DNA of 34,922 nucleotides from a virus. Location of the stretch: positions 1-34,922 of IMG/VR virus record IMGVR_UViG_3300008108_000400; one strand, given 5' to 3'. Shown here piece by piece: positions 925 through 32,785 of this stretch (positions within the stretch are counted from its first letter, which is position 1; every line of letters begins with the position of its first letter). The position numbers and the translations under genes are program-made. Under the pieces are notes generated by a model. The model was not told the DNA's origin. It searched no databases and was given only the letters and a program-made list of their open reading frames with translations.

Positions 925-1055
925 CCTGCGTATGGCTTCTCGTAGGTAGAGCTGCTCTTGTTTTTAGACCTGCTCTTAGCGTGTCTTCCGTGGTTCTTCT
1001 TGGAGTTCAGCACGAGCTTCTCTGAAGCCCTTCCGCTAGATTTTGCTTTAGCCAT
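912..1055 (-). CDS. Very basic 47-aa phage protein
   Basis: ATG 1055 overlaps the TGA of the M15 peptidase gene (TGATG). The product starts MAKAKSSGRASEKLVLNSKK and ends in a Lys/Arg/Ser-rich tail, ...YEKPYAGQGR. More than a third of residues are basic. Similar short Lys/Ser-rich proteins ending in PYxGQGR occur, from memory, in marine Bacteroidota phages; function unknown, with nucleic-acid binding or virion association as guesses. Its 3' end overlaps the convergent regulator gene by 13 nt. Confidence 0.7.
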   Translation of the reverse strand: MAKAKSSGRASEKLVLNSKKNHGRHAKSRSKNKSSSTYEKPYAGQGR

Positions 1056-1513
1056 CAGTACAGCTTGTATATTGTTGCTTTTCCGTCGCGCATAGCACGC
1101 AGCACGCGCTTCTTATTGTTCCCTTTGTGGTATGACACGTGTACCCATTCTGGATTCTCGTCGTTACCGAACTCCCAAATCAGTTGATTGAACTCTAGGT
1201 TCTTCCTGATGAATTCAAAAACCTCTTTGTTTGTGACGCCTCCATGAGTATCTGCGTCAAGATCGAGCGCACGCCCAACCATATGCTCCGACGTTTTCGA
1301 CCCTCCGACTGCTTTATTGAGTTCTTTGCAGCGGAATCCTGATGATACTGCGATAGGTACATCGAAGTGGTCTCGTAAGGGCTGAAAAACATGAGTAGCT
1401 ATATCTATAAGATTTGCAATGTCCTCTTTATCTGGGGCATTATTTATCCCCAGGCGCTCTGCCGTTATAGACTTTGTCACCTCCCTTAGGCTGAGGTTTT
1501 TGCTTAGTTGCAT
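1055..1513 (-). CDS. Peptidase M15 family endolysin
   Basis: This 152-residue protein matches the peptidase M15A (D,D-carboxypeptidase/endopeptidase) core used by many phage endolysins. Zinc ligands are readable: H77 and D84 in SEHMVGRALDLD, and H125 in EWVHVSYH; E114 in LIWEF is the likely catalytic base. The SSGFRCKELNKAVGG segment (58-71) before the first ligand is typical of the family. There is no signal peptide, so export would need the holin encoded at 22629-23087. The start ATG follows an A-rich leader (TTAAAAATG). Its stop overlaps the next gene's start. Predicted substrate: peptide cross-links of host peptidoglycan. Confidence 0.88.
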   Translation of the reverse strand: MQLSKNLSLREVTKSITAERLGINNAPDKEDIANLIDIATHVFQPLRDHFDVPIAVSSGFRCKELNKAVGGSKTSEHMVGRALDLDADTHGGVTNKEVFEFIRKNLEFNQLIWEFGNDENPEWVHVSYHKGNNKKRVLRAMRDGKATIYKLY

Positions 1514-21212: not shown

Positions 21213-21413
21213 TTACTTAAATCTAGCCTTCTCGTTTATCTTCACTGTAGTTCCGTCAGACATCTTGCCCTTTGCTTTGAAATGATTTCTCTTGACAGTA
21301 CCGTCAGGGTTTGTCACCAAAACAAATTTCCCAGTAACAGGAACTTCTTTGTCGTCTATTCCGACAGTCCAAGTGCCCTTTTCTTTTGTTCTAGTTCTTT
21401 TCTTGGGAGTCAT
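21213..21413 (-). CDS. Small basic hypothetical protein, 66 aa
   Basis: Last gene of the late operon. The protein MTPKKRTRTKEKGTWTVGID and DKEVPVTGKFVLVTNPDGTV shows beta strands with a basic N- and C-terminus (KINEKARFK). ATG 21413 overlaps the end of the metalloprotease gene by 23 nt. A TATCTTTG box at 21476-21469 inside that gene may give it a separate transcript. No family recognised. Confidence 0.62.
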   Translation of the reverse strand: MTPKKRTRTKEKGTWTVGIDDKEVPVTGKFVLVTNPDGTVKRNHFKAKGKMSDGTTVKINEKARFK

Positions 21414-22632
21414 TTATCTTTCTTATTATTTCGTGAATGTCTTCGGGCTTAGTCGCCAACTGCCTAGGCAAAGATAATCCAAAACAATTACAATTTTGTC
21501 CATACACATTGAGCAGGTAGAGAACGTCGTTTGACGTGACCATGTGATCCAGATCTATATCTCCTTCTGTGCAGAACTCGCAACCCATGTTAGAAAGCAT
21601 GACAAGCAAGTCGCTTGTACCTATGTGACAATCCCCGTCTAAATCCCCGAAACAAAACACCTCATCAGAAAACAAGTCAGACCTTTGATACTCAAGCATA
21701 GCATGCATACGCTCTATCTGTCCTTCAGTAAACACGTCTCTGCATTCTTCTGGACAGTAGTCCATATGATTGTTGGGGTAGAACTGCACCCCTCCGTAAT
21801 TCATCAATGGGCAATGATACCCTGGAACATCTGGACAGCCTTGGCTAGCCTTTGTAGGAGGCGTGTCGCACACGTAGTCTCCACTGTGTTCACAAGGGCC
21901 TAGGTATTGACCGCAGTTAGATATGGCGCTTGCACCGTTCTTAAACACATGATGCAGTCCGCAGTAGTGACCAACCTCGTGAGTAAGCGTTTCGTTCTCA
22001 AACCTGAACGTGAGGTGAGGACCGTAGGTCCCCATCACTTCTGTCTCTACCCATACCCCGTCCAACACGCTATATGGAATATATGTAACCCATGCAAAAC
22101 CAAGGATCGATGAGCAGAAGTCTGGGGCAACGTAGATGTTGCAATACTCTGCCGTATTCCATTTGACCATGTTGCTCCACTGAGCCATCTGCGTTCCGTA
22201 CTGAGGAAAGCACACCCCAGATCCTGACCTATACGAAGAGGCCCATGTGAAGCTGTTCAGATTGGTATAATCGATGTCCTCAAGAGTGAACGAGATGTCA
22301 GTTCCTTCAAAGTCCACATTCAGCTGAACCATAGCATCCTCAATAATCGACTCTTGGATTTGGCTATTGGCAAACGCTGTATCCCAAAGCACATGAACTA
22401 CGCACTTAATTTCTTTGTGGCTATATGCAGTTCTATTTTTTGTGTGGTTCTTTGGGAGTATGTCTTCTTGAGGCCCCATAACGAAGCACTCCTCTTGAGC
22501 TACAGCTGGGGAGGAGCATGACGAGAACGCCATAAAGAGTAACACGACCATCACGGCCAGCACCTTCAAAAACACAAACGCACTACAATCGTATACCGTA
22601 TCGTATATGCTGGCTGATTCTCCTGTTCTCAT
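21391..22632 (-). CDS. Exported M43-type metalloprotease with dockerin-like repeats, 413 aa
   Basis: The N-terminus has a hydrophobic helix (FLKVLAVMVVLLFMAFSSCS, about 21-40) with a lipobox at C39 and an alternative cleavage after PAVAQ; either way export is predicted. The catalytic domain carries HEVGHYCGLHH (H218, E219, H222, H228), the HExxHxxGxxH zinc site of the pappalysin M43 family, followed by the Met-turn NHMDYCPEECRDVF (M290). Many Cys suggest disulphides. The C-terminal part has two dockerin-like Ca-binding repeats, GDLDGDCHIGTSDLLVML (329-346) and GDIDLDHMVTSNDVLYLL (357-374). The gene is ATGA-coupled to the holin-like gene, so it is a candidate lysis or envelope-attack factor; a virion or secreted role is equally open. 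Very unusual in a phage. Confidence 0.88.
   Translation of the reverse strand: MRTGESASIYDTVYDCSAFVFLKVLAVMVVLLFMAFSSCSSPAVAQEECFVMGPQEDILPKNHTKNRTAYSHKEIKCVVHVLWDTAFANSQIQESIIEDAMVQLNVDFEGTDISFTLEDIDYTNLNSFTWASSYRSGSGVCFPQYGTQMAQWSNMVKWNTAEYCNIYVAPDFCSSILGFAWVTYIPYSVLDGVWVETEVMGTYGPHLTFRFENETLTHEVGHYCGLHHVFKNGASAISNCGQYLGPCEHSGDYVCDTPPTKASQGCPDVPGYHCPLMNYGGVQFYPNNHMDYCPEECRDVFTEGQIERMHAMLEYQRSDLFSDEVFCFGDLDGDCHIGTSDLLVMLSNMGCEFCTEGDIDLDHMVTSNDVLYLLNVYGQNCNCFGLSLPRQLATKPEDIHEIIRKINDSQEKN
21469..21476 (-). promoter_or_regulatory. -7 box TATCTTTG inside the metalloprotease gene
   Basis: Minus strand 21476-21469 is TATCTTTG in the context GGATTATCTTTGC, identical over 12 nt to the box ahead of the giant gene (32809-32802). 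A TTG is 14 nt upstream. Could transcribe the 66-residue gene alone, with a leader of about 50 nt. Confidence 0.42.
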
Positions 22633-23087
22633 CTTTTATTTAGTTTTACTTTTTCATAGGATCTTCCAGCAAAGTATGCTGTAAATGCGGTAGTCATCAG
22701 TATGCTGAACGTGTCTATATACGCTGATTTTATGTTAAACAACACTTTATCAGCGCTATCCATAGCTACAAATATAGTAAAAACAAAGACCAGATAACAC
22801 AACATGATTGGCCTTATGTTCTTTGATAACCAAGAGTCAGACATCATATCCGCCTTCCATCTCTCGGTTACGTTATTCTGTGCGTTAGCCTCGTAATCAA
22901 GCAGCATCTTCTCAAACTCCATCTTTTCCTGAGCGGTCATGTTGGGGTCAAGATCAATCAGCCTTTTCACAACGCCAAGGGCTCCTTGGTCTGGAAGCAG
23001 CTCGCCTACTGTGTCGAGGACTTGCGGGGCTTTGTCTTTTAGCCAAGTTCCCAATTTGGTATCTTTTAGTTTCTTTCTGTCTCTCAT
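22629..23087 (-). CDS. Holin-like protein (3TM/GTA holin type), 152 aa
   Basis: The C-terminal half fits the GTA-holin/3TM family: RWKADMMSDSWLSKNIRPIM (about 76-95) then LCYLVFVFTIFVAMD as one membrane span and YIDTFSILMTTAFTAYFAGR as a second. The 'SDSWLSKNIRP' block is the family's hallmark. The N-terminal half is soluble and helical (KAPQVLDTVGELLPDQGALG). Expected role: forming membrane lesions at the end of infection to release the M15 endolysin, whose gene lies in the other minus block. It overlaps the stop of the giant gene and the start of the metalloprotease gene. Confidence 0.78.
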   Translation of the reverse strand: MRDRKKLKDTKLGTWLKDKAPQVLDTVGELLPDQGALGVVKRLIDLDPNMTAQEKMEFEKMLLDYEANAQNNVTERWKADMMSDSWLSKNIRPIMLCYLVFVFTIFVAMDSADKVLFNIKSAYIDTFSILMTTAFTAYFAGRSYEKVKLNKR

Positions 23088-26000
23088 GGCTGGAGGCTTT
23101 GGTATCTCTCTTGTATGAGGTCAAGTACATAGATCGAGTGAGGCATGAACGTACCGTCTGGGTAATACTCGATCATAGAATTATACTTTTCGTTTATTTC
23201 GTTTAGCGCGTCTATCTTCTCTCCGTCAGACATGTTGCTGTACTCAGGTCTTTTCATAAACTGCTGTATATCAGCATATCTGTGGGAGTTAGACATCTCA
23301 AGCATATCATTCAGTTCCTCCGCCGTAAGCGAGAACCTAAACTCTTCACCTGTCTTGCCGATGAACGAGTAAGACTTTCCTCTGTCTCTAAGCTTATCAA
23401 GAGCAACCTGAGCCTTCTTTGCCTTCAACGAAGGAACCTCAAGCTTTCTGTGTACGGACGATGCGTAGTACGGAGTCCCAACTGCCTTCGGAAGCTCGCC
23501 AGTCCTTGTGTAAATACCGAGGATTTCTATAGACACTGGATCAGTCCCAGTAGTTGTGGTCTTATAAGGATCGAACATGTAGTAAGCGAATTGATTCCCG
23601 CCCTTAGGAGACTGGGAAATTCTCTCTCCTTTCCAGTTCACCTTTACAGGCAATCCATCGGTGTTGAAAGTTCTTTCTTTTACGTGGTTGAAAATTCTAT
23701 CTGTAAGATCCTGATCTCTCTTATCTGGTAAGAACTCTCTAGTGGCCATGTTAGCACCAGAGAAGAAGTTTGGAATCGCCATAGCACTGTACGCTTTCGA
23801 AAGGCTCTCAGCATATCTCTCCATAGCCATCTCAAGCTTTTCTGGATCAGACTCGGTGATTACCTCAAGCATGCCATTCAAGCCCTGCATGAAGCTTTGA
23901 TCCATCATGTAAGAGATGAGAGACGCGTTCTCCATACCCAAAAACCTCTTCAGTATGTTTATCCCTTTCGTTGGGTTGCCGATTGCATCCTGAGCTGCCT
24001 CTCTAGTCATACTCTGAGCGTAAGCGCCCATGATAGAACCAAGTACCCCGAACGTCTGATAGCTCTTGTACACGTCACCCTCTTGAGGAGTGGGGTCGCC
24101 TCCGTTCATCAGCCTTTTCAGCGCGGTTATATTGATGCTGTTGGGGGGCATGACGTCATACATGATGTTGGTTTTCTCATCATCCTCCCAGTCTACCGCA
24201 CCGCTAAGCACCCCACTAGCGATCATGTAAAGAGCCCCTTGAGTAAAGACCTGACCAATCATAACCTTAGTGGCATTCTTAGAGGCTTCCTCTGCGTTGT
24301 TATTCAGCAAGTTAGACGCGACTCTAGCTGTACCAAAGGCAGGGGATATGTAAGTGAGAGACTCCTCCATGAAGTTGGCGATGGTCGTAACGTAAGGGAC
24401 GTTAGATCTGATAAAGAATCTGAAGAACCCAGGCGCATCAAATCCTTTGTTATTGTCGAACATCTTGCCAAGACCTCTCGAGATGTTGCTTATGATCCAC
24501 ATGCTACCTCTAGCAAGACCCCCTTCTTTCTGGAACGTCATTCTTGCTCCCTCGTCTGCGGCCTTATCCATAGAAGCTCTGTCTGGGTACTTCAGGAACC
24601 TAGCAAGTTCAGCCCCCTTCAGCCCTTTACCCACCCCTACGTGGTAGAGCTCAGTGGCTTCAGCAAATCTTCTAAATGGAATATCGCCAAGAGAAAGGAA
24701 TCTGAACATGGTTTCTGCTGGGATACCGAAGGTTCCAGCCACAAGAAGCTTCATTCTTGAATTGAGTTGCTGCCTGCCATTCCTTGTCTGAGGAAGATCC
24801 TTTGAAAGAGCAGCAAGCAGCGATCTGACAGGCATGAATCCCCTGTCCATTCTCCACTCATTAACCTCTTTCGATCTTCCAGTTGCCACTTGTTCAATGG
24901 CCTCAACCCACCCAGACCCGAACTTCTTCAACCCATGTAGGTAAGCCGCCATGCTTACCCTTCTTCCAGACGTCTTCATTCCCATGACCCCAAGCAACTT
25001 CTCAACGGGATATGACGTGAGATCAACCATGGTTCTCGGGAACATCTGAGCAATGTTGTATGCGATGTTCTTGGCCTGAGACATAGACGTAAGCAGGTTA
25101 CCCTGCATAAGCTGTATGCCTATGTCGGCCCAGCTCTTATCTACAAACACGTTAGTTAGGGTATCAAGTTGGCTTTGAGCATCTGAGTACTTTTTAATAG
25201 CCTCGCCCAGCTCAGCCTCTACATCTTCTCCAGCAATAGCTCTGTCGAGCAAAGCCTGATACTCTCTGTATGAATCCATGAACGCATCTGCGGCTACTTG
25301 CAGGTCGCTCTTTTGCTTATCGTTCAGGACCTTGCCTTGGCTCTCTGCTAGCTTAGCGATCGTGGAATAGAGGCCGAAAGAAGTGGATGTCTTCAGTTCA
25401 GCAAACTGTCTAAGCAGTCTACCTACAGAGGTTCCCATCTTAGCCAAGTCTTCAATCACGCCTGGTATAGCATCAACTCTACCTTCAGCCTGCATTCGGT
25501 TGATTATTTCAATCCCAGCAAGCACGCCTAAGTCATCGTTCCTGTTCATCAGGGAACCAAGCTTGTCACCACGCATCATAGACACCAGCTCTTGGATGCT
25601 CTTTCCTCTAAGTTCTTCTTTTGCAGTATCCAGATGCTGAGTTTCCAAGTAGTTGTTTGGATTATCCAAGATGTCGTTTTTGATCTCATAGAAGTCTTCT
25701 GAGGCAGCAGCTCTTTCTGCTGTACCTCTAAGCCTCCCCTTCTTGCTCGCTGGATTAACTAGTATAGCCTGCTGATTTTCTGGAGTCAAAGAATCAAAAA
25801 TCTCAAGCAGCGCATCCTCGTCTTCAGTGTACACCTCAGGCATATGCTTTCTAAGGTTCTCTCTAACCGCTTCAATTATAGCTTCATTCTGAGCCTGCGT
25901 TCTTGTTGCTGCTGAGGCAGTTGTCTCGGCTGCGCTGAGACCATTCTTGTTCATAGACTCTGGGTAGTACTGTATGTTGCCTCTCGCAATCATCTTTCCG

Positions 26001-29000
26001 CCTATAAACGTCACCTCGTCTGCACTCTTTATAAGTCTTCCGTTCTCGTCAGCAAACCCATTGTTTCTCAGGGGGTCCATCTCTACCAACACCCCAGTCA
26101 TCAGGTCGTCAGTCTCTTGAATCTGCTTAAACTTTCCAGACACATGCTTCTTTGGGCCTGATTCATTTGCGGCTATTCCAGCCATGTTAAACGCTGAAGG
26201 ACGTGGGAACTTAACGTCAGTTAAAATGGCCTCACTGGTCACATGCATCGGTTGTCCGCTAAGCGTTCTCGACACATTTACTACAGGATGCAACGTCTCA
26301 GACATTATCCTTGGATCCACGTAAACAAATACTCTCTGACCGTCCTTGGGTACAGTTCCCTGTGCCACTATAGCCGTGTGAAGCGGATACGGGGCAAGGA
26401 CTTCATCTATGTTTTCTGAATTTAGAACCTCTCCATTTGGAGATATAAACTCGTCTTCCCTGTGTGTTCTTGACTCACCTGGAGTTATGCTAAACATAGC
26501 CCTACCATCTTCAGAAACTCTAAAGGCTTCATCGCTTTTTATCTGCCTGTCTACAGCCTCGCTTACTAGCATTGGATTCAGCACTGCGTCAAACGCACCA
26601 CGCGCCGCCTCTGTGGTAGACATGTTTGAAATTGAATCATGGTAGTCCTGATAGCTGTTTCTAGACACCCCAGCCGCATGGCGTTGTTCGTGATTCAGCT
26701 GGAACAACATTTGTTGCGCTAAGGCTGGACTAACCTTTGCTCCGTAATCTTTAGATAGCGACTTAGACAGGTCCGTAACAAGCCCAGCTATAAATTCTCT
26801 TTCTTTTTTATTCCTTGGCTTGGTTGGGAGAAGGTCCTTTTTGTTCTTCTTGAACCACTTGTCGAGCGCTTTTATTTTGTCATTACTAAGCCCTAAGTCA
26901 TCTCTTTCGTGTTTTTTGTAACAGCTTCTTCTTATTATCTGCCCCACTACAGTCATTCTCTTCTGACTGTTTTCAAGAAGATCGTAGTAGTCCTTCCCTA
27001 GTATTTTCACAAGGCCATTCCAATCTTCCTTATTTCTTTTTGCGCCTCTGAATATATTGATTACCTGGACCAGATGCGAGTCTTGAGTTACCACATCTTC
27101 GTTGCCAAGCATGTTGGATAACCACGCCCCAATCTTTGGGGAAATCATATCCATTAAAGCTGATGTTGCCCATGCGGTTTCCGTACCTGGCTTCATAGCC
27201 ATTTCATACAAGAACTTGTCATATGAGCCGTCTACTTCCTTTCCCTCTATGTTTTTCAAAAACTTGCTCAACTGAATCCCTATAGACATAGCCCTTTGTG
27301 GGTTTACCCCAATTCCAGTAAAGGCATTTGAATTAGATATTTTGTTGATAAGTCCTTTTATCGTCTTCTTTTTAGAGTCTATAGTGCCGTCTTGAGATAT
27401 GTTCCTAGCAAGCGCCATCATCACGTATTTAGCAAGCGCCGCATTATCATTAGAAGTATTCCCGTTTGATGTTATGGCTATGATGGCTTTGAACAGGTTT
27501 ACGTTGTTCTTGGCCCATTCCATTCCAGTATCACCACCAAAATCAGTAGGATTTGAGTCAGACAAAAATCCTCTAATTCCCCGATCCGTTGCTTCAAAAA
27601 ATTTCAAAGACTCAAGGTCTCCAGATTCAATTCTTTGGTCGAAAGCAGCCTTCAGTGAATTAGAAGCCCTTTGCGCCAAAATTGTCTTAGCTCTTCCAGT
27701 AAACGTCAAAAGAGGTGTAACTCTCTTTGCAAAGTGAAGCGTATTTTTTGCATAAATAAAGTCTACTATATCTGCTCTTCTGTTCCCTTCTGAGTATTCT
27801 TTAGCCACCTCATCTGGCACGTCAATAGATCTCAGTAGCGCGTACATGTCTGTCTTCAAGTAATCCTTCTGAGCACTTGAAGCTGTTCTTAATTTCTCGG
27901 CTAATGAATTGAATTTATTTCTAAACTCCATCTCGCTTTGAGCAGGGGTAGAGTCTATAGAGAACATGGGTCTCTCTGCCTCCATGCCGTCTCTCTCCTC
28001 TATAAACTCATACATAGTCTCATACATCATGTCTATGTGCTCTTTAGAGCCTTCCAGAACTTTCCCGCCAGGAGTTTCTACATACCCATAAAAGTCTGCT
28101 TTTGGAAGCAAGCTGCTGAACTCTCCTACGGAACGAGGGCCATATTTTGCTGATAAATACTGACTAATACCATTGGACACTACTATCCCATTCATCCTCA
28201 GCTCATCCTTCGACTTCTGTTTTTGCACATTCTGGGCTATCATCTTGGCCCCGTATGATATAGGTCTATTATATTTCTCTCTACCTATAACCTCTCCAGT
28301 TTGCTTGTTTACTTCAGGAGCTGGAGGTCTGAGTTCCTTGACGTTGCCCTGATCATCAACGTAAGAGAACCCTCCAATTATTTCTGTCCTTCCGTTATTG
28401 GTCATGAAGTTGTACCAATTCCTGAAGTGGGCATAGTCATTAAACGTCTTCTTTAAATCGATTCCCTTTCCGTTGTTCTGTTCAACAATGTTGCCGTGAG
28501 AATCCAATCTAAACTCAGAGTACGTGACTGTTTTGTTGTAAAGGAATGACTTCTCTCCTCTAAAGGAGAACTTAGGTTCATCCATAGAGTTTATCTCGTT
28601 GTTGTCCACAACAGAATCCTCAGACTCCAGAATTTTAGCTATGTCCCTAGCCGACATCCCTTTGTTCATAACTATAGAGTCAGAGAACATCTTTACGATC
28701 CTCTCTGCGTTCATTCCGTTTACATCACTATCTGAAAGACCGAATGCATTCTTAATTGCATTAACTATATAGTCATAAGCAGTCGATATGATGTTCTTAG
28801 AAACCTCAAGTGATGGATTGCTGAGAGCACGGGCAAGAACCTCAGCCACTTGTTCTTCAACAAGAGCCAACCCCGTAAATCCAGCTTTAGTGTACACCCC
28901 TTTCTTCCAGTTCATTACGCTCTTGTAAGAAGCGTTTTTAGAAAACTCAGAGTGTATCTTTCTAATCAGTCCTGATTTAAGCGCTGTATCTACATCAAAA

Positions 29001-32000
29001 AATGCGTGTATTACCTCTTCTATTACATCTTTTGAATTAGACTTTTCAGTTATGTATATAGCGCCTTTGAAGTAAGCCGCTCCAATTTCATTTCTACCAC
29101 CCTTAAGTATATCGATTGAACTAGAAAGATTATCTCCATCAGCAATCAGGGTCTTTACGATAGAGTACTGATCTTTAGCAAAGTATACTTTTATGCCAAG
29201 CTTTTCTGCGGCAAATACAAGAGCGCTTGCCGTGGCTTCATTTACTATGGACGGAAGGCTTTCTCTAACGGACGTGCTTACGTCAGCAGCTAATTCTGAT
29301 TCATCTATTCTGCTTCGAATAGAGGCGTACTGCTCTTTACTGTCTGCTACATACTGGTCTACTGCATTCTTATTCTTGCTGTAGTAATTAGCCTGATATG
29401 GGGTCAGCGCTTCTCCGTTTATTATGCTGTCAGAGATGCTCTTGATGACCTCTGAATCAACAGCAGACTTTGATGCGCCTTTAGATCTCATAAACGCCAC
29501 ATCTGCCTGCACTTTGGCGTCTCTCGCTCTTTCGTTTAACGGAAGCGAATTGTCTATCTTCACTTTTCCGAGTGGATCGTATACCAAAGAAGCCGCCCCT
29601 GATTCATCATACCCAACAACCCTATAGCCAATTCCCTTCATTGATTCAGATTGGTCCATAGGGACCGAAAGCAAAAGGTCAAGTGGCGCTTGGGGGACGT
29701 CTCTAACAACATTCGACGGAACCTGAGCCTTTCTCTGCTTAAGGAAGTTTGACTTTTCTTTGAGCCTAGCTATTTCTGCCTCTGACTCTTTTATCCTTAC
29801 TGCATTCGTTGGATCTGTAGCACCACCAAAAGACTTCTCGAATCTTCTCTTTCTAGATCTTTCTCTTTCTATGAGGCGGTTGTTTGCTGCTATGGCAGTG
29901 TCTATGCCTTCAGTCCCCAAAGAGAAGGTGTACTGCTCTGTGTACTTGCCCTCTATGGCAGCAAGCTCATCGTATTTATCTCTTATCGCTTGAGCCAGGT
30001 CGTTATTAGTTGGAGACGTTCTGAGCTGTCCCTCCAATATCGCAAGCTCATTCTGAACTGCATTTATCCGATTGAAGTCAGCTTGGTTAGTCGCTGAGAC
30101 GAAGTCGTAGAAGTTCTTGTTGTCTTCCAGTATATACCTAGTATTATTGAACGACTTAATGAACTCATCTATAGCGGCAGTTCTTTCTGGTGTATTTGGT
30201 TTTGTGTTTTGAAATATCCGATTAAGATCCATTTTGGACTCTTCTATCGTTCTTACGTAACTTCTATTTCCCTTTGCTACTGCAAACGCTTGAACACCCC
30301 CAGATACCAGAAGAGTAGGAGCAGCTATTTGGCTAATCTCTTCAGCCATTCTGGATGGGCTGAGGAACCAAGAATAGTCACCAGTTACGTTAGCCGTAAT
30401 CAGGTTTTGAGCGAACGAAGTTCCAACTTCAGTTAACTGTTCTGAAGTAAGGTTCAGTCCGATCTGACCCGCGACCCTAGCCCCGTACTGCATCGGGTTT
30501 TCTGTTATAGCCCTTACAAACGTCCCTCCAAGTACTTTGTTGGCAAGGAATATGTCACCACCTACTCTTTCAAGTCCAGCAGCCACAGCAGCTCCAGCAG
30601 ATATTGCCGCAACCTTTTCAGCTGAACTAAGGCCGTAGAACTCTGGCATTTTTCTAAACATGCTATTCATGTTTCCTGCCTCCATCAAGGCCATGACAGC
30701 CATACCAGCACTTGGGTTTCTAGTCAAAGCAGTCGTCCCTATTGCGGTAAGCATATACGGCAGCGACTGGGAAGCCATACCAAGGGCTTCAGAGGCAGTC
30801 CCGTATACGTCCTCACCCCACTCATACGACTTAAACATGCCAGAAGCCTTCTCTACGTTTGACCGCACAGAGAATCTCTCCTCATATTCTTTAAGGTCAG
30901 GACGCCCAGTAAACACATCTTTAACCAATGTGCCTATTCCGCTAAACACATCCAGAATAGAAGCGCCAAAATAAGTAGCGGGTTTTGCTATGAAGCTTGA
31001 CAGAAACTCATCAACAGCGCTAATGTTAACTATCATAGCACCATTAAGCGCCATATTGCCACTAAGCGTTCTTATTAAGCCGATGTTTGCTCCAAGAGCA
31101 CCGTCACCAGTCAAATCTATTTCTACTCCTATGCTCTTGAGCCTAGTCTCCGTATCTTCAAGCTTATTTTTATCTACAGTCCCGAATCTAGACTGCAAGG
31201 CAGATACCACGGAGTTCCTTATTTCCTCTTGGTTTTTGTTCACGAACTCCTGCGCCCAGTCCTCCATGGCTTTCGCCTGAGTTGCTTCACTTTCGCTTGC
31301 CACTGCCGTATAAGCATCACTTAATTCAAAGGCAGTCCTTATAGGATTGCTTGATCGCATCACAGCACTCGGGTTTGCTGAAGACTGAGCCAGCTGCAAC
31401 GGAAGCAACATCTCGTAAATGTTTGCGGTGGACACAGCCATTTCATTGTCGGCGTCGTTGGAGAACTCTATCATTCTCTCCTTGTTGACTCTAAACGCAG
31501 CAAGCTCTGCTTTGGCTTTTTCTAGTCTCAACTGTGCCTCTTCATATGGAAAAGAAATAGGACCCACAACTGGAGCGAATGCAACCTTCAAAATCTGCTG
31601 AGAAAGCTCGTTAGAACGATCCATAGACTCATATTCGGCATTCGCCTCCCTCATTCTCTCTACAAGGTCTTCTTCATATTCCTCTGATGGAACGCTCAGA
31701 GAAGTTCTATTGGCAGCAGCCATAAGTGCGTCACTAATTATTGTCGGTATAGTGGCCTTGAACTCTTCAGCCTTACCAAGAACCTCTTCAACAGACATCT
31801 CTTGCCCAGTTCTTATGATGTATGTGTCAACTATAGCTTGAGCGTCATCAACTCTTAGCCGACCAAAACTGTCACTTATACTGGCCTCTGATTCCATAGT
31901 GGATATGCCAGAAACCATAGCTGCTGCAAGTTTTTCCTTTTCCTTTCTTCCTATACCCCTGACGTCATTCAGCGCTTGCACAGCCACAATGGCTTCATCA

Positions 32001-32785
32001 AATTTTTTCTCGTTGACCCTAGCATTAACAACAGCGCCGACATCTTCAATCGCTCTCTGAACCTCTGTGTTTCTTGCAATGGCACGCGCAGCCCATTTGC
32101 TAGTTACGAGATCCTGATCTACCATAGCGTTGATCTGGTCGTTAAACTCTGGATACTTAGCTCTTATATCCTGAGCTCTAGCATATGCATCTCTAACTGC
32201 CTCTTTTTCATTTTCTGGAGACTCTTCAAGCAGCGCATTCAGCTCCCTCTCGTTCTGAGCAAATGCAGCGCTGGACACTCTGGCACCCCTAGCTTCAGCT
32301 CTTCTCTCTACGCTCTGCTTAGTTAAGTCTAAGATGTTCTGCCTCTCGTCTTCGCCAAGGTTAAATCTGAACTGCTGCTCAAGCTGAGTAATGGCTGATG
32401 CAGCTCCCTCTTTAGAGTCTGCGCTAGATATGATGCCATGAATCTTATCGCCGATAAGCTTGTTGGTGGCCTCTATGTCTGGGTTGAGCAAGGAAGCTCT
32501 CTCTGTGAGAGGTTTAATCCTTGGCTTTGGCGACAAAAAATCCGAACCTAACGCCGAAGATGCCAATCCAGTAGGCTCTTCCGTCTGGACCTGATTCGGA
32601 TCCGACAATTCTTTTTTTTTATTAGCCTCTACGTCTATCCCGTCTATCTCTGTAGCCAAGCTCTCAATGCCTTCGTCGTCATTGATTCCGAGGTCTGGAG
32701 CTATAACTCTGGCTATTTCTTTGTTGCTTGCTTCTGGGAGTTGACTCTTAATATCGAGTATAAGTCGGATGGCCTTGTCTTGCAT
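23084..32785 (-). CDS. Giant 3233-aa virion/ejection-like polyvalent protein
   Basis: One uninterrupted 9.7-kb frame. The N-terminal third is alpha-helical with Ala/Glu-rich repeats; hydrophobic stretches occur near 665-685 (ASQSLPYMLTAIGTTAL) and 720-745 (AAISAGAAVAAGLERVGGDI); coiled coils lie near 900-1030. A zincin-like segment at about 1256-1300 has IEEVIH (H1260) and VEEQVAEVLARAL but lacks the first His of HExxH, so it may be inactive. A second HEQRH is at 2032-2036. The C-terminus contains long amphipathic helices and a hydrophobic span near 2842-2865. Size, hydrophobic patches and position after two internal-protein-like genes recall phage large internal virion proteins (T7 gp16 role, 'large polyvalent' proteins). 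No transglycosylase motif was found. ATG 32785 follows promoter 32802-32809. Confidence 0.85.
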   Translation of the reverse strand: MQDKAIRLILDIKSQLPEASNKEIARVIAPDLGINDDEGIESLATEIDGIDVEANKKKELSDPNQVQTEEPTGLASSALGSDFLSPKPRIKPLTERASLLNPDIEATNKLIGDKIHGIISSADSKEGAASAITQLEQQFRFNLGEDERQNILDLTKQSVERRAEARGARVSSAAFAQNERELNALLEESPENEKEAVRDAYARAQDIRAKYPEFNDQINAMVDQDLVTSKWAARAIARNTEVQRAIEDVGAVVNARVNEKKFDEAIVAVQALNDVRGIGRKEKEKLAAAMVSGISTMESEASISDSFGRLRVDDAQAIVDTYIIRTGQEMSVEEVLGKAEEFKATIPTIISDALMAAANRTSLSVPSEEYEEDLVERMREANAEYESMDRSNELSQQILKVAFAPVVGPISFPYEEAQLRLEKAKAELAAFRVNKERMIEFSNDADNEMAVSTANIYEMLLPLQLAQSSANPSAVMRSSNPIRTAFELSDAYTAVASESEATQAKAMEDWAQEFVNKNQEEIRNSVVSALQSRFGTVDKNKLEDTETRLKSIGVEIDLTGDGALGANIGLIRTLSGNMALNGAMIVNISAVDEFLSSFIAKPATYFGASILDVFSGIGTLVKDVFTGRPDLKEYEERFSVRSNVEKASGMFKSYEWGEDVYGTASEALGMASQSLPYMLTAIGTTALTRNPSAGMAVMALMEAGNMNSMFRKMPEFYGLSSAEKVAAISAGAAVAAGLERVGGDIFLANKVLGGTFVRAITENPMQYGARVAGQIGLNLTSEQLTEVGTSFAQNLITANVTGDYSWFLSPSRMAEEISQIAAPTLLVSGGVQAFAVAKGNRSYVRTIEESKMDLNRIFQNTKPNTPERTAAIDEFIKSFNNTRYILEDNKNFYDFVSATNQADFNRINAVQNELAILEGQLRTSPTNNDLAQAIRDKYDELAAIEGKYTEQYTFSLGTEGIDTAIAANNRLIERERSRKRRFEKSFGGATDPTNAVRIKESEAEIARLKEKSNFLKQRKAQVPSNVVRDVPQAPLDLLLSVPMDQSESMKGIGYRVVGYDESGAASLVYDPLGKVKIDNSLPLNERARDAKVQADVAFMRSKGASKSAVDSEVIKSISDSIINGEALTPYQANYYSKNKNAVDQYVADSKEQYASIRSRIDESELAADVSTSVRESLPSIVNEATASALVFAAEKLGIKVYFAKDQYSIVKTLIADGDNLSSSIDILKGGRNEIGAAYFKGAIYITEKSNSKDVIEEVIHAFFDVDTALKSGLIRKIHSEFSKNASYKSVMNWKKGVYTKAGFTGLALVEEQVAEVLARALSNPSLEVSKNIISTAYDYIVNAIKNAFGLSDSDVNGMNAERIVKMFSDSIVMNKGMSARDIAKILESEDSVVDNNEINSMDEPKFSFRGEKSFLYNKTVTYSEFRLDSHGNIVEQNNGKGIDLKKTFNDYAHFRNWYNFMTNNGRTEIIGGFSYVDDQGNVKELRPPAPEVNKQTGEVIGREKYNRPISYGAKMIAQNVQKQKSKDELRMNGIVVSNGISQYLSAKYGPRSVGEFSSLLPKADFYGYVETPGGKVLEGSKEHIDMMYETMYEFIEERDGMEAERPMFSIDSTPAQSEMEFRNKFNSLAEKLRTASSAQKDYLKTDMYALLRSIDVPDEVAKEYSEGNRRADIVDFIYAKNTLHFAKRVTPLLTFTGRAKTILAQRASNSLKAAFDQRIESGDLESLKFFEATDRGIRGFLSDSNPTDFGGDTGMEWAKNNVNLFKAIIAITSNGNTSNDNAALAKYVMMALARNISQDGTIDSKKKTIKGLINKISNSNAFTGIGVNPQRAMSIGIQLSKFLKNIEGKEVDGSYDKFLYEMAMKPGTETAWATSALMDMISPKIGAWLSNMLGNEDVVTQDSHLVQVINIFRGAKRNKEDWNGLVKILGKDYYDLLENSQKRMTVVGQIIRRSCYKKHERDDLGLSNDKIKALDKWFKKNKKDLLPTKPRNKKEREFIAGLVTDLSKSLSKDYGAKVSPALAQQMLFQLNHEQRHAAGVSRNSYQDYHDSISNMSTTEAARGAFDAVLNPMLVSEAVDRQIKSDEAFRVSEDGRAMFSITPGESRTHREDEFISPNGEVLNSENIDEVLAPYPLHTAIVAQGTVPKDGQRVFVYVDPRIMSETLHPVVNVSRTLSGQPMHVTSEAILTDVKFPRPSAFNMAGIAANESGPKKHVSGKFKQIQETDDLMTGVLVEMDPLRNNGFADENGRLIKSADEVTFIGGKMIARGNIQYYPESMNKNGLSAAETTASAATRTQAQNEAIIEAVRENLRKHMPEVYTEDEDALLEIFDSLTPENQQAILVNPASKKGRLRGTAERAAASEDFYEIKNDILDNPNNYLETQHLDTAKEELRGKSIQELVSMMRGDKLGSLMNRNDDLGVLAGIEIINRMQAEGRVDAIPGVIEDLAKMGTSVGRLLRQFAELKTSTSFGLYSTIAKLAESQGKVLNDKQKSDLQVAADAFMDSYREYQALLDRAIAGEDVEAELGEAIKKYSDAQSQLDTLTNVFVDKSWADIGIQLMQGNLLTSMSQAKNIAYNIAQMFPRTMVDLTSYPVEKLLGVMGMKTSGRRVSMAAYLHGLKKFGSGWVEAIEQVATGRSKEVNEWRMDRGFMPVRSLLAALSKDLPQTRNGRQQLNSRMKLLVAGTFGIPAETMFRFLSLGDIPFRRFAEATELYHVGVGKGLKGAELARFLKYPDRASMDKAADEGARMTFQKEGGLARGSMWIISNISRGLGKMFDNNKGFDAPGFFRFFIRSNVPYVTTIANFMEESLTYISPAFGTARVASNLLNNNAEEASKNATKVMIGQVFTQGALYMIASGVLSGAVDWEDDEKTNIMYDVMPPNSINITALKRLMNGGDPTPQEGDVYKSYQTFGVLGSIMGAYAQSMTREAAQDAIGNPTKGINILKRFLGMENASLISYMMDQSFMQGLNGMLEVITESDPEKLEMAMERYAESLSKAYSAMAIPNFFSGANMATREFLPDKRDQDLTDRIFNHVKERTFNTDGLPVKVNWKGERISQSPKGGNQFAYYMFDPYKTTTTGTDPVSIEILGIYTRTGELPKAVGTPYYASSVHRKLEVPSLKAKKAQVALDKLRDRGKSYSFIGKTGEEFRFSLTAEELNDMLEMSNSHRYADIQQFMKRPEYSNMSDGEKIDALNEINEKYNSMIEYYPDGTFMPHSIYVLDLIQERYQSLQP

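Follow-up and report, generated by a model that had tools for sequence, protein, structure and literature searches.

An exported M43-family metalloprotease encoded behind a phage holin gene points to a possible proteolytic step in the release of phages

A gene for an exported metalloprotease of peptidase family M43 (the pappalysin family) lies directly behind the holin gene in an uncultured phage and in many of its relatives, and this arrangement suggests, at the level of sequence, a previously undescribed proteolytic step in phage release. Lysis of Gram-negative hosts is usually described in terms of a holin, an endolysin and a spanin. A holin-coupled exported protease would, if this reading is true, add a proteolytic step to that scheme, in hosts with envelopes unlike that of E. 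coli, where spanins are poorly known. The gene was analysed in the window, by which is meant the whole 34,922-nucleotide stretch of the IMG/VR virus record IMGVR_UViG_3300008108_000400 (Table 1). A preliminary description of this DNA had proposed an exported M43 metalloprotease of cellular type, with a lipobox or signal and two dockerin-like repeats, coupled to the holin gene inside a phage lysis block.

Table 1. Locations of the features discussed. Positions refer to the window unless another locus is named; residues are counted from Met1, and columns in the alignment of relatives, which was built without Met1, are one lower.
Feature	Location	Strand	Basis
M43 (pappalysin-family) exported metalloprotease gene, 413 aa	21391..22632	(-)	PF05572, PDB profile search, Foldseek, omega
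Signal peptide, residues 1-45; predicted SPase I site AVA45/Q46; Cys39 (FSSC) a doubtful lipobox	22498..22632	(-)	Alignment
Short pro-segment, residues 46-72, with Cys49 as candidate cysteine switch	22417..22497	(-)	Alignment, pN/pS
Catalytic domain, residues 73-318 (about)	21679..22416	(-)	Pfam stretch 157-314 and AF2 model
Zinc motif HEVGHYCGLHH, residues 218-228	21949..21981	(-)	Alignment of relatives
Met-turn, Met290 in NHMDY	21763..21765	(-)	Conserved in relatives
First dockerin-like (F-hand-like) repeat, residues 327-351	21580..21654	(-)	Sequence pattern
Second dockerin-like repeat, residues 354-383	21484..21573	(-)	Pattern; conserved across whole clade
Conserved C-terminal segment KPEDIHEIIRKIN, residues 395-407, predicted helix	21412..21450	(-)	Alignment, AF2 model
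Holin, 152 aa	22629..23087	(-)	PHROG 3427 'holin', E 2.7e-21
Probable internal virion protein, 3233 aa, directly upstream of holin, same orientation	23084..32785	(-)	Position
M15 endolysin, on the late strand like M43, not adjacent to it	1055..1513	(-)	PHROG 894, 8.8e-36; Pfam M15_3, 1.6e-19
Ribonucleotide reductase, 627 aa	19215-21098	(+)	
Small exported protein, 117 aa	6778-7131	(+)	
Proteins in the slot behind the holin of sister phages (L224: one gene further)	L034:6426-8639; L219:4432-6552; L222:4429-6933; L224:6042-8180; L226:4544-6970; L229:4435-6573		
TM-coiled-coil protein	L089:7599-7802; L076:5783-5995; G297:40366-40575		
Tandem M43 genes	L068:4104-7368; L070:4079-7347		

By its zinc motif, Met-turn, profile score and modelled pappalysin fold, the window protein is a member of peptidase family M43 with predicted proteolytic activity. 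The Pfam profile PF05572 matched residues 157-314 with an E value of 1.5e-17 and 64.3 bits against a cut-off of 23, so that its HExxHxxGxxH is no chance motif. Ulilysin was the top match in a profile search of the PDB (3.6e-20), in which mirolysin was also matched, and both were recovered by Foldseek from an AF2 model of the protein (pLDDT 73), ulilysin being the closest (1.7e-12). The usable model was built from 43 diverse sequences, that from 20 close relatives being unusable (pLDDT 44.5); its confidence is low at the N-terminus, mostly 75-97 in the N-terminal half of the catalytic domain and 47-78 across part of the half that carries the active site. Residues H218, E219, H222, G225 and H228 are invariant in the window clade and in nearly all relatives. 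Glu295 occupies the position of the S1' Asp in ulilysin and mirolysin; among 42 sequences this position (Tyr+3) holds Glu in 17 and Asp in 14, with Glu in the window clade. Since an acidic S1' residue is shared with these enzymes, cleavage before Lys or Arg is plausible by analogy. With the open reading frame, the zinc motif, the Met-turn and a signal sequence all found, together with the Pfam match, the initial assignment as an exported M43 metalloprotease holds.

Export is indicated by the N-terminus, where an A-x-A/Q cleavage motif is retained in nearly all M43 relatives in the alignment; the signal peptide itself evolves fast (pN/pS 0.73). The lipobox offered in the preliminary description as an accompaniment to the signal did not survive, because Cys39 is not conserved: it is missing in L015, L016, L025 and L026, Phe precedes the Cys in others, and AxA/Q is common instead, so that a lipoprotein was rejected for the family. 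The adjoining pro-segment has a pN/pS of 0.095, and a Cys at the position of Cys49 is present in at least 90% of 43 M43 proteins. This residue is the counterpart of mirolysin Cys23; mirolysin is a zymogen when secreted, in which Cys23 binds the zinc, and it activates itself outside the cell and requires Ca2+ (PMC6949598). The conserved Cys matching the mirolysin switch suggests, by this analogy, that the window protein is a latent zymogen with a candidate cysteine switch. The Cys-Gly dipeptide is missing from the pro-segment in the window clade. A small exported protein with a signal peptide ending in SAQ is encoded among the early-strand genes of the window and is also found in a 62 kb relative.

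At the C-terminal end, the loops DLDGDCHIGTSD (residues 330-341) and DIDLDHMVTSND (residues 358-369) match the pattern DxDxDxxxxxxD, and the repeat region has a pN/pS of 0.077. Pfam Dockerin_1 scored below its cut-off on the window protein (E 0.84-1.5), the EF-hand match was also just marginal, and the dockerin scores of relatives were higher (L089 2.9e-4, L008 1.4e-5 to NF041540, the NCBI GC-type dockerin), all of them below the cut-offs. The repeats are thus dockerin-like in their loop pattern alone; a true (type I, cohesin-binding) dockerin is not supported at the profile level. A pattern of KPE followed by a helix is common to C-termini across the clade and is also helical in the AF2 model; no further open reading frame in the 62 kb relative ends in the segment KPEDIHEIIRKIN. 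The C-terminus has a pN/pS of 0.41. In L025 and L026 the catalytic part is like that of the window protein and the last 30 residues are like those of L024, which is a sign of recombination at the C-terminus. Neither TIGR04183 nor PF18962 matched the window protein, which therefore lacks the C-terminal sorting domain of T9SS cargo, and T9SS sorting was rejected for it. In several of the larger M43 proteins of phages the tail resembles a T9SS tail in shortened form (hhalign probability 50%, E 1.6e-4), a likeness that is suggestive only.

The gene preceding M43 is assigned to a holin because of its PHROG 3427 match and the position of this family beside endolysins, which it adjoins in MW202879, MW202753 and the cultured Nonlabens phage P12024S; among 80 further loci, many have an M15 gene beside it. 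Both genes have the late (structural) orientation, and the TGA stop of the holin gene and the ATG start of the M43 gene share a four-base overlap, from which joint translation late in infection is probable. The GC content of the M43 gene (46.1%) equals that of the window (46.6%) and thus bears no mark of recent foreign insertion. On the opposite strand, a ribonucleotide reductase with a class II (B12-dependent) insertion domain faces the lysis genes in most relatives.

Scans of IMG/VR recovered relatives of the window M43 protein at 68 loci. The M43 gene stands directly behind the holin gene in the window and in 26 other IMG/VR contigs from many metagenomes (27 in total), and a genome search gave one further likely case (L058). 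In all holin relatives of at least 56% identity recovered with the window holin (L010-L032) the next gene is M43, and the order giant protein-holin-M43 recurs in relatives. The coupling to the holin gene stated in the preliminary description is borne out. The refuting case that it named, a gene missing from all relatives as cargo or an assembly chimera, does not apply, since the 26 other contigs, in which holin and M43 are neighbours as well, rule out a chimera or single-contig cargo. Purifying selection on the gene is strong (median omega 0.094; pN/pS 0.10 in the catalytic domain). A scan of genome contigs for bacterial parents gave only two distant relatives, of about 30% identity, and 5 of 296 genomes of one phylum matched at E <= 1e-20. 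Most phage M43 proteins cluster together in a tree, but with weak support and long branches.

The association with lysis genes extends to other lineages. Next to the order of the window clade, giant protein-holin-M43, the order M15 endolysin-holin-M43-GroES-like was found in L028-L032, L046 and L056-L059, and M15 endolysin-M43 in L047, L060 and L063, whose M43 proteins are 65-75% identical to that of the window. Holin-M43 occurs in L072, holin-TM-coiled-coil-M43 in L076 and L228, TM-coiled-coil-M43 in L125 and holin-two small genes-M43 in L217 and L227; in L098/L213 the M43 gene faces the holin and TM-coiled-coil genes. L008 has M43-121 aa protein-amidase, L089, L090, L094 and L095 have a 660 aa M43 protein followed by a 67 aa TM-coiled-coil protein and M15, and in L088 M43 and the same 67 aa protein are followed by an amidase about 1 kb on. 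M43 genes with such lysis neighbours reach down to about 30% identity to that of the window. When one representative was taken per lineage, the immediate neighbour of M43 was a holin or endolysin in 5/15 lineages (about 1 expected; Poisson-binomial P 0.0016), and M43 adjoined a holin, endolysin or TM-coiled-coil gene in 9/15 (P about 1e-7, or 4e-5 with holin-giant architectures collapsed); these P values are rough, as the 15 lineages are partly dependent, P was set by hand to 0.03 for contigs with no detected lysis gene, and the TM-coiled-coil protein was first noticed through its position beside M43. Conserved adjacency to holin and endolysin genes makes it well supported that M43 belongs to the phage lysis module, and the exported protease of cellular type was rightly placed inside a lysis block. 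M43 genes elsewhere, with GroEL/ES neighbours (L071-L081), in tandem with a putative lipoprotein (L067-L070), or in L099 and L101, make this link recurrent, not universal.

Among these, L071, L073-L075, L077, L078 and L081 form a separate phage group in which M43 is followed by phage-encoded GroEL and GroES, with M43 proteins about 55-67% identical to the holin-linked ones of L072 and L076. In L068, L070 and L067 the tandem M43 genes are accompanied by a small putative lipoprotein with a dockerin-like motif at its end; L067 and L101 likewise have two M43 genes each.

The reading preferred here, to which we give about an even chance, is that the window M43 protein is made late as a zymogen, is exported by Sec and, around lysis, digests envelope, surface or matrix protein of the host, thereby aiding the release of progeny. 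The protein, probably made together with the holin, would pass through Sec, be cleaved at AVA/Q and be kept on the outer side of the inner membrane as a short zymogen in which Cys49 blocks the zinc, as we infer from mirolysin and ulilysin. Activated around lysis, it would degrade proteins in the envelope of the host, on its surface or in the matrix around it, the cell remnant would open, and neither debris nor matrix nor receptors would retain the progeny; a role in stabilizing or positioning the enzyme is probable for the F-hand-like repeats and the C-terminal helix. This reading predicts that a protease mutant is defective in release, spread or rebinding. The missing T9SS tail of the window protein, as a route outside before lysis, counts against this reading. 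Furthermore, the relatives far from lysis genes (L071-L081 and the tandem genes of L067-L070) imply that M43 need not act at lysis, and most of the distant phages with the PHROG 3427 holin family have no M43 nearby, so that M43 is dispensable for lysis in general.

In sister phages the slot behind the holin is occupied differently. L034, L219, L222, L226 and L229 have the same holin family and no M43, and the slot holds a signal-peptide protein of 707-835 aa with a T9SS type A tail (TIGR04183 E values of 4e-9, 3e-6, 6e-10, 5e-6 and 3e-9, respectively); in L224 a T9SS-tailed exported protein lies one gene further behind the holin, with an E value (2e-4) below the cut-off. The main part of these proteins matched no Pfam family, and they are mostly followed by a protein of 344-366 aa with a signal-like N-terminus, read from its sequence as outer-membrane-like. 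Such T9SS tails indicate a Bacteroidota host and a cell-surface location, and the hosts of these uncultured phages are almost certainly Bacteroidota. A broader proposal, tentative and somewhat likelier to be wrong than right, is that phages of T9SS-bearing Bacteroidota reserve the slot behind the holin for an exported protein, either an M43 zymogen or, in sister phages, a T9SS-sorted surface protein, which together would provide an extra lysis or dispersal step on the outer membrane, surface or matrix. Phage release would then be linked to the surface-protein export route of Bacteroidota.

The same surface-directed tails, together with the export of the M43 protein and the occurrence of some relatives outside lysis modules, would also suit an enzyme that strips receptors or adhesins from the surface of the infected cell and thereby prevents rebinding of progeny and entry of rival phages, with adjacency to the holin reflecting late expression only. 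Such a receptor-destroying or superinfection-excluding role is unlikely: it does not need recurrent coupling to lysis genes, and the window protein, which lacks a T9SS tail and is exported by Sec only, would remain in the periplasm until lysis.

A Sec signal with no T9SS tail and a position in the lysis module would also fit if a periplasmic M43 protease substitutes for a spanin by cutting the tethers between outer membrane and wall, the outer membrane yielding after holin and endolysin have acted. No two-component or unimolecular spanin was recognizable in the 62 kb relative, which would favour this role; however, the search was a simple TM/lipobox scan, and those relatives whose tails are T9SS-like would not stay in the periplasm. 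In addition, the TM-coiled-coil protein (67-71 aa, one TM helix and a coiled coil) is widespread near holin, endolysin or M43 genes across many of these genomes, that of the 62 kb relative among them, and its weak profile matches (holin phrog_1296, 0.0011; Rz-like spanin phrog_214, 0.0025) make it a possible spanin or second holin. Substitution for a spanin is judged quite improbable. Spanins are marked by a lipobox and/or TM segment with a fibrous or coiled-coil part that spans the periplasm, and the M43 protein does not itself qualify as one, being a globular metzincin behind a cleavable signal.

Capture of a host T9SS-type protease as auxiliary cargo, with a benefit in feeding or gliding, is very unlikely: the order M43-repeats-T9SS-like tail seen in some relatives is that of bacterial proteins, and phage-encoded T9SS cargo has a precedent in Cryophage (PMC7468147), but the constant position after the holin gene in two lineages, kept through large divergence under strong constraint, is unlike variable cargo. 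A protease packaged in the virion and acting during entry, on a surface layer for instance, is the least probable reading, for although the gene follows a giant virion-like gene on the same strand, the conserved signal peptide and many conserved Cys residues are typical of exported proteins, and gene order across lineages follows holin and endolysin, not tail genes.

The lysis-stage protease preferred here has few counterparts in existing records. None of the M43 proteins tested had a PHROG match, and 50,697 GenBank phage records gave one M43 match only, a fragment on an unverified 7.6 kb faecal scaffold; current lysis surveys therefore miss the family. A 2025 survey of viral lytic proteins makes no mention of M43 or metalloproteases and, for Bacteroidetes phages, lists no spanins other than unimolecular ones (PMC12596118). 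No phage M43, pappalysin or lysis-linked metalloprotease was described in the literature searched, in agreement with the earlier statement that no such lysis system was known, and M43 as a recurring part of the lysis module appears to be undescribed within that literature.

Among characterized enzymes, the unicellular M43 pappalysins ulilysin, mirolysin and cytophagalysin share with the window protein the zinc motif, Met-turn, fold, N-terminal Cys and acidic S1' residue; unlike them, it is phage-encoded, has a shorter pro-segment that lacks Cys-Gly in the window clade, and has extra Cys residues, F-hand-like repeats and a KPEDIHEL tail. The 'ulilysin' proteins of giant viruses such as Tupanvirus have an M43-like fold but belong to unrelated viruses of eukaryotes with no lysis module. 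The nearest precedent is the exported zinc metallopeptidase of the flavobacterial Maribacter phages Molly and Colly_1, for which matrix degradation and progeny escape were proposed (PMC8776804); however, this is a 199 aa matrixin-type lipoprotein, not M43, with a weak fold match (1.4e-5) and no reported holin coupling. The T9SS cargo of Cryophage is likewise phage-encoded and exported through a host Bacteroidota system, but consists of variable genes with glycosidase and PA14 domains and no stated holin linkage (PMC7468147), and the window M43 protein has no T9SS tail. With the holin-endolysin-spanin cassettes of dsDNA phages, the window-type lysis module shares the PHROG 3427 holin and the M15 endolysin, which in one lineage are arranged as M15-holin-M43, and to these it adds an exported protease.
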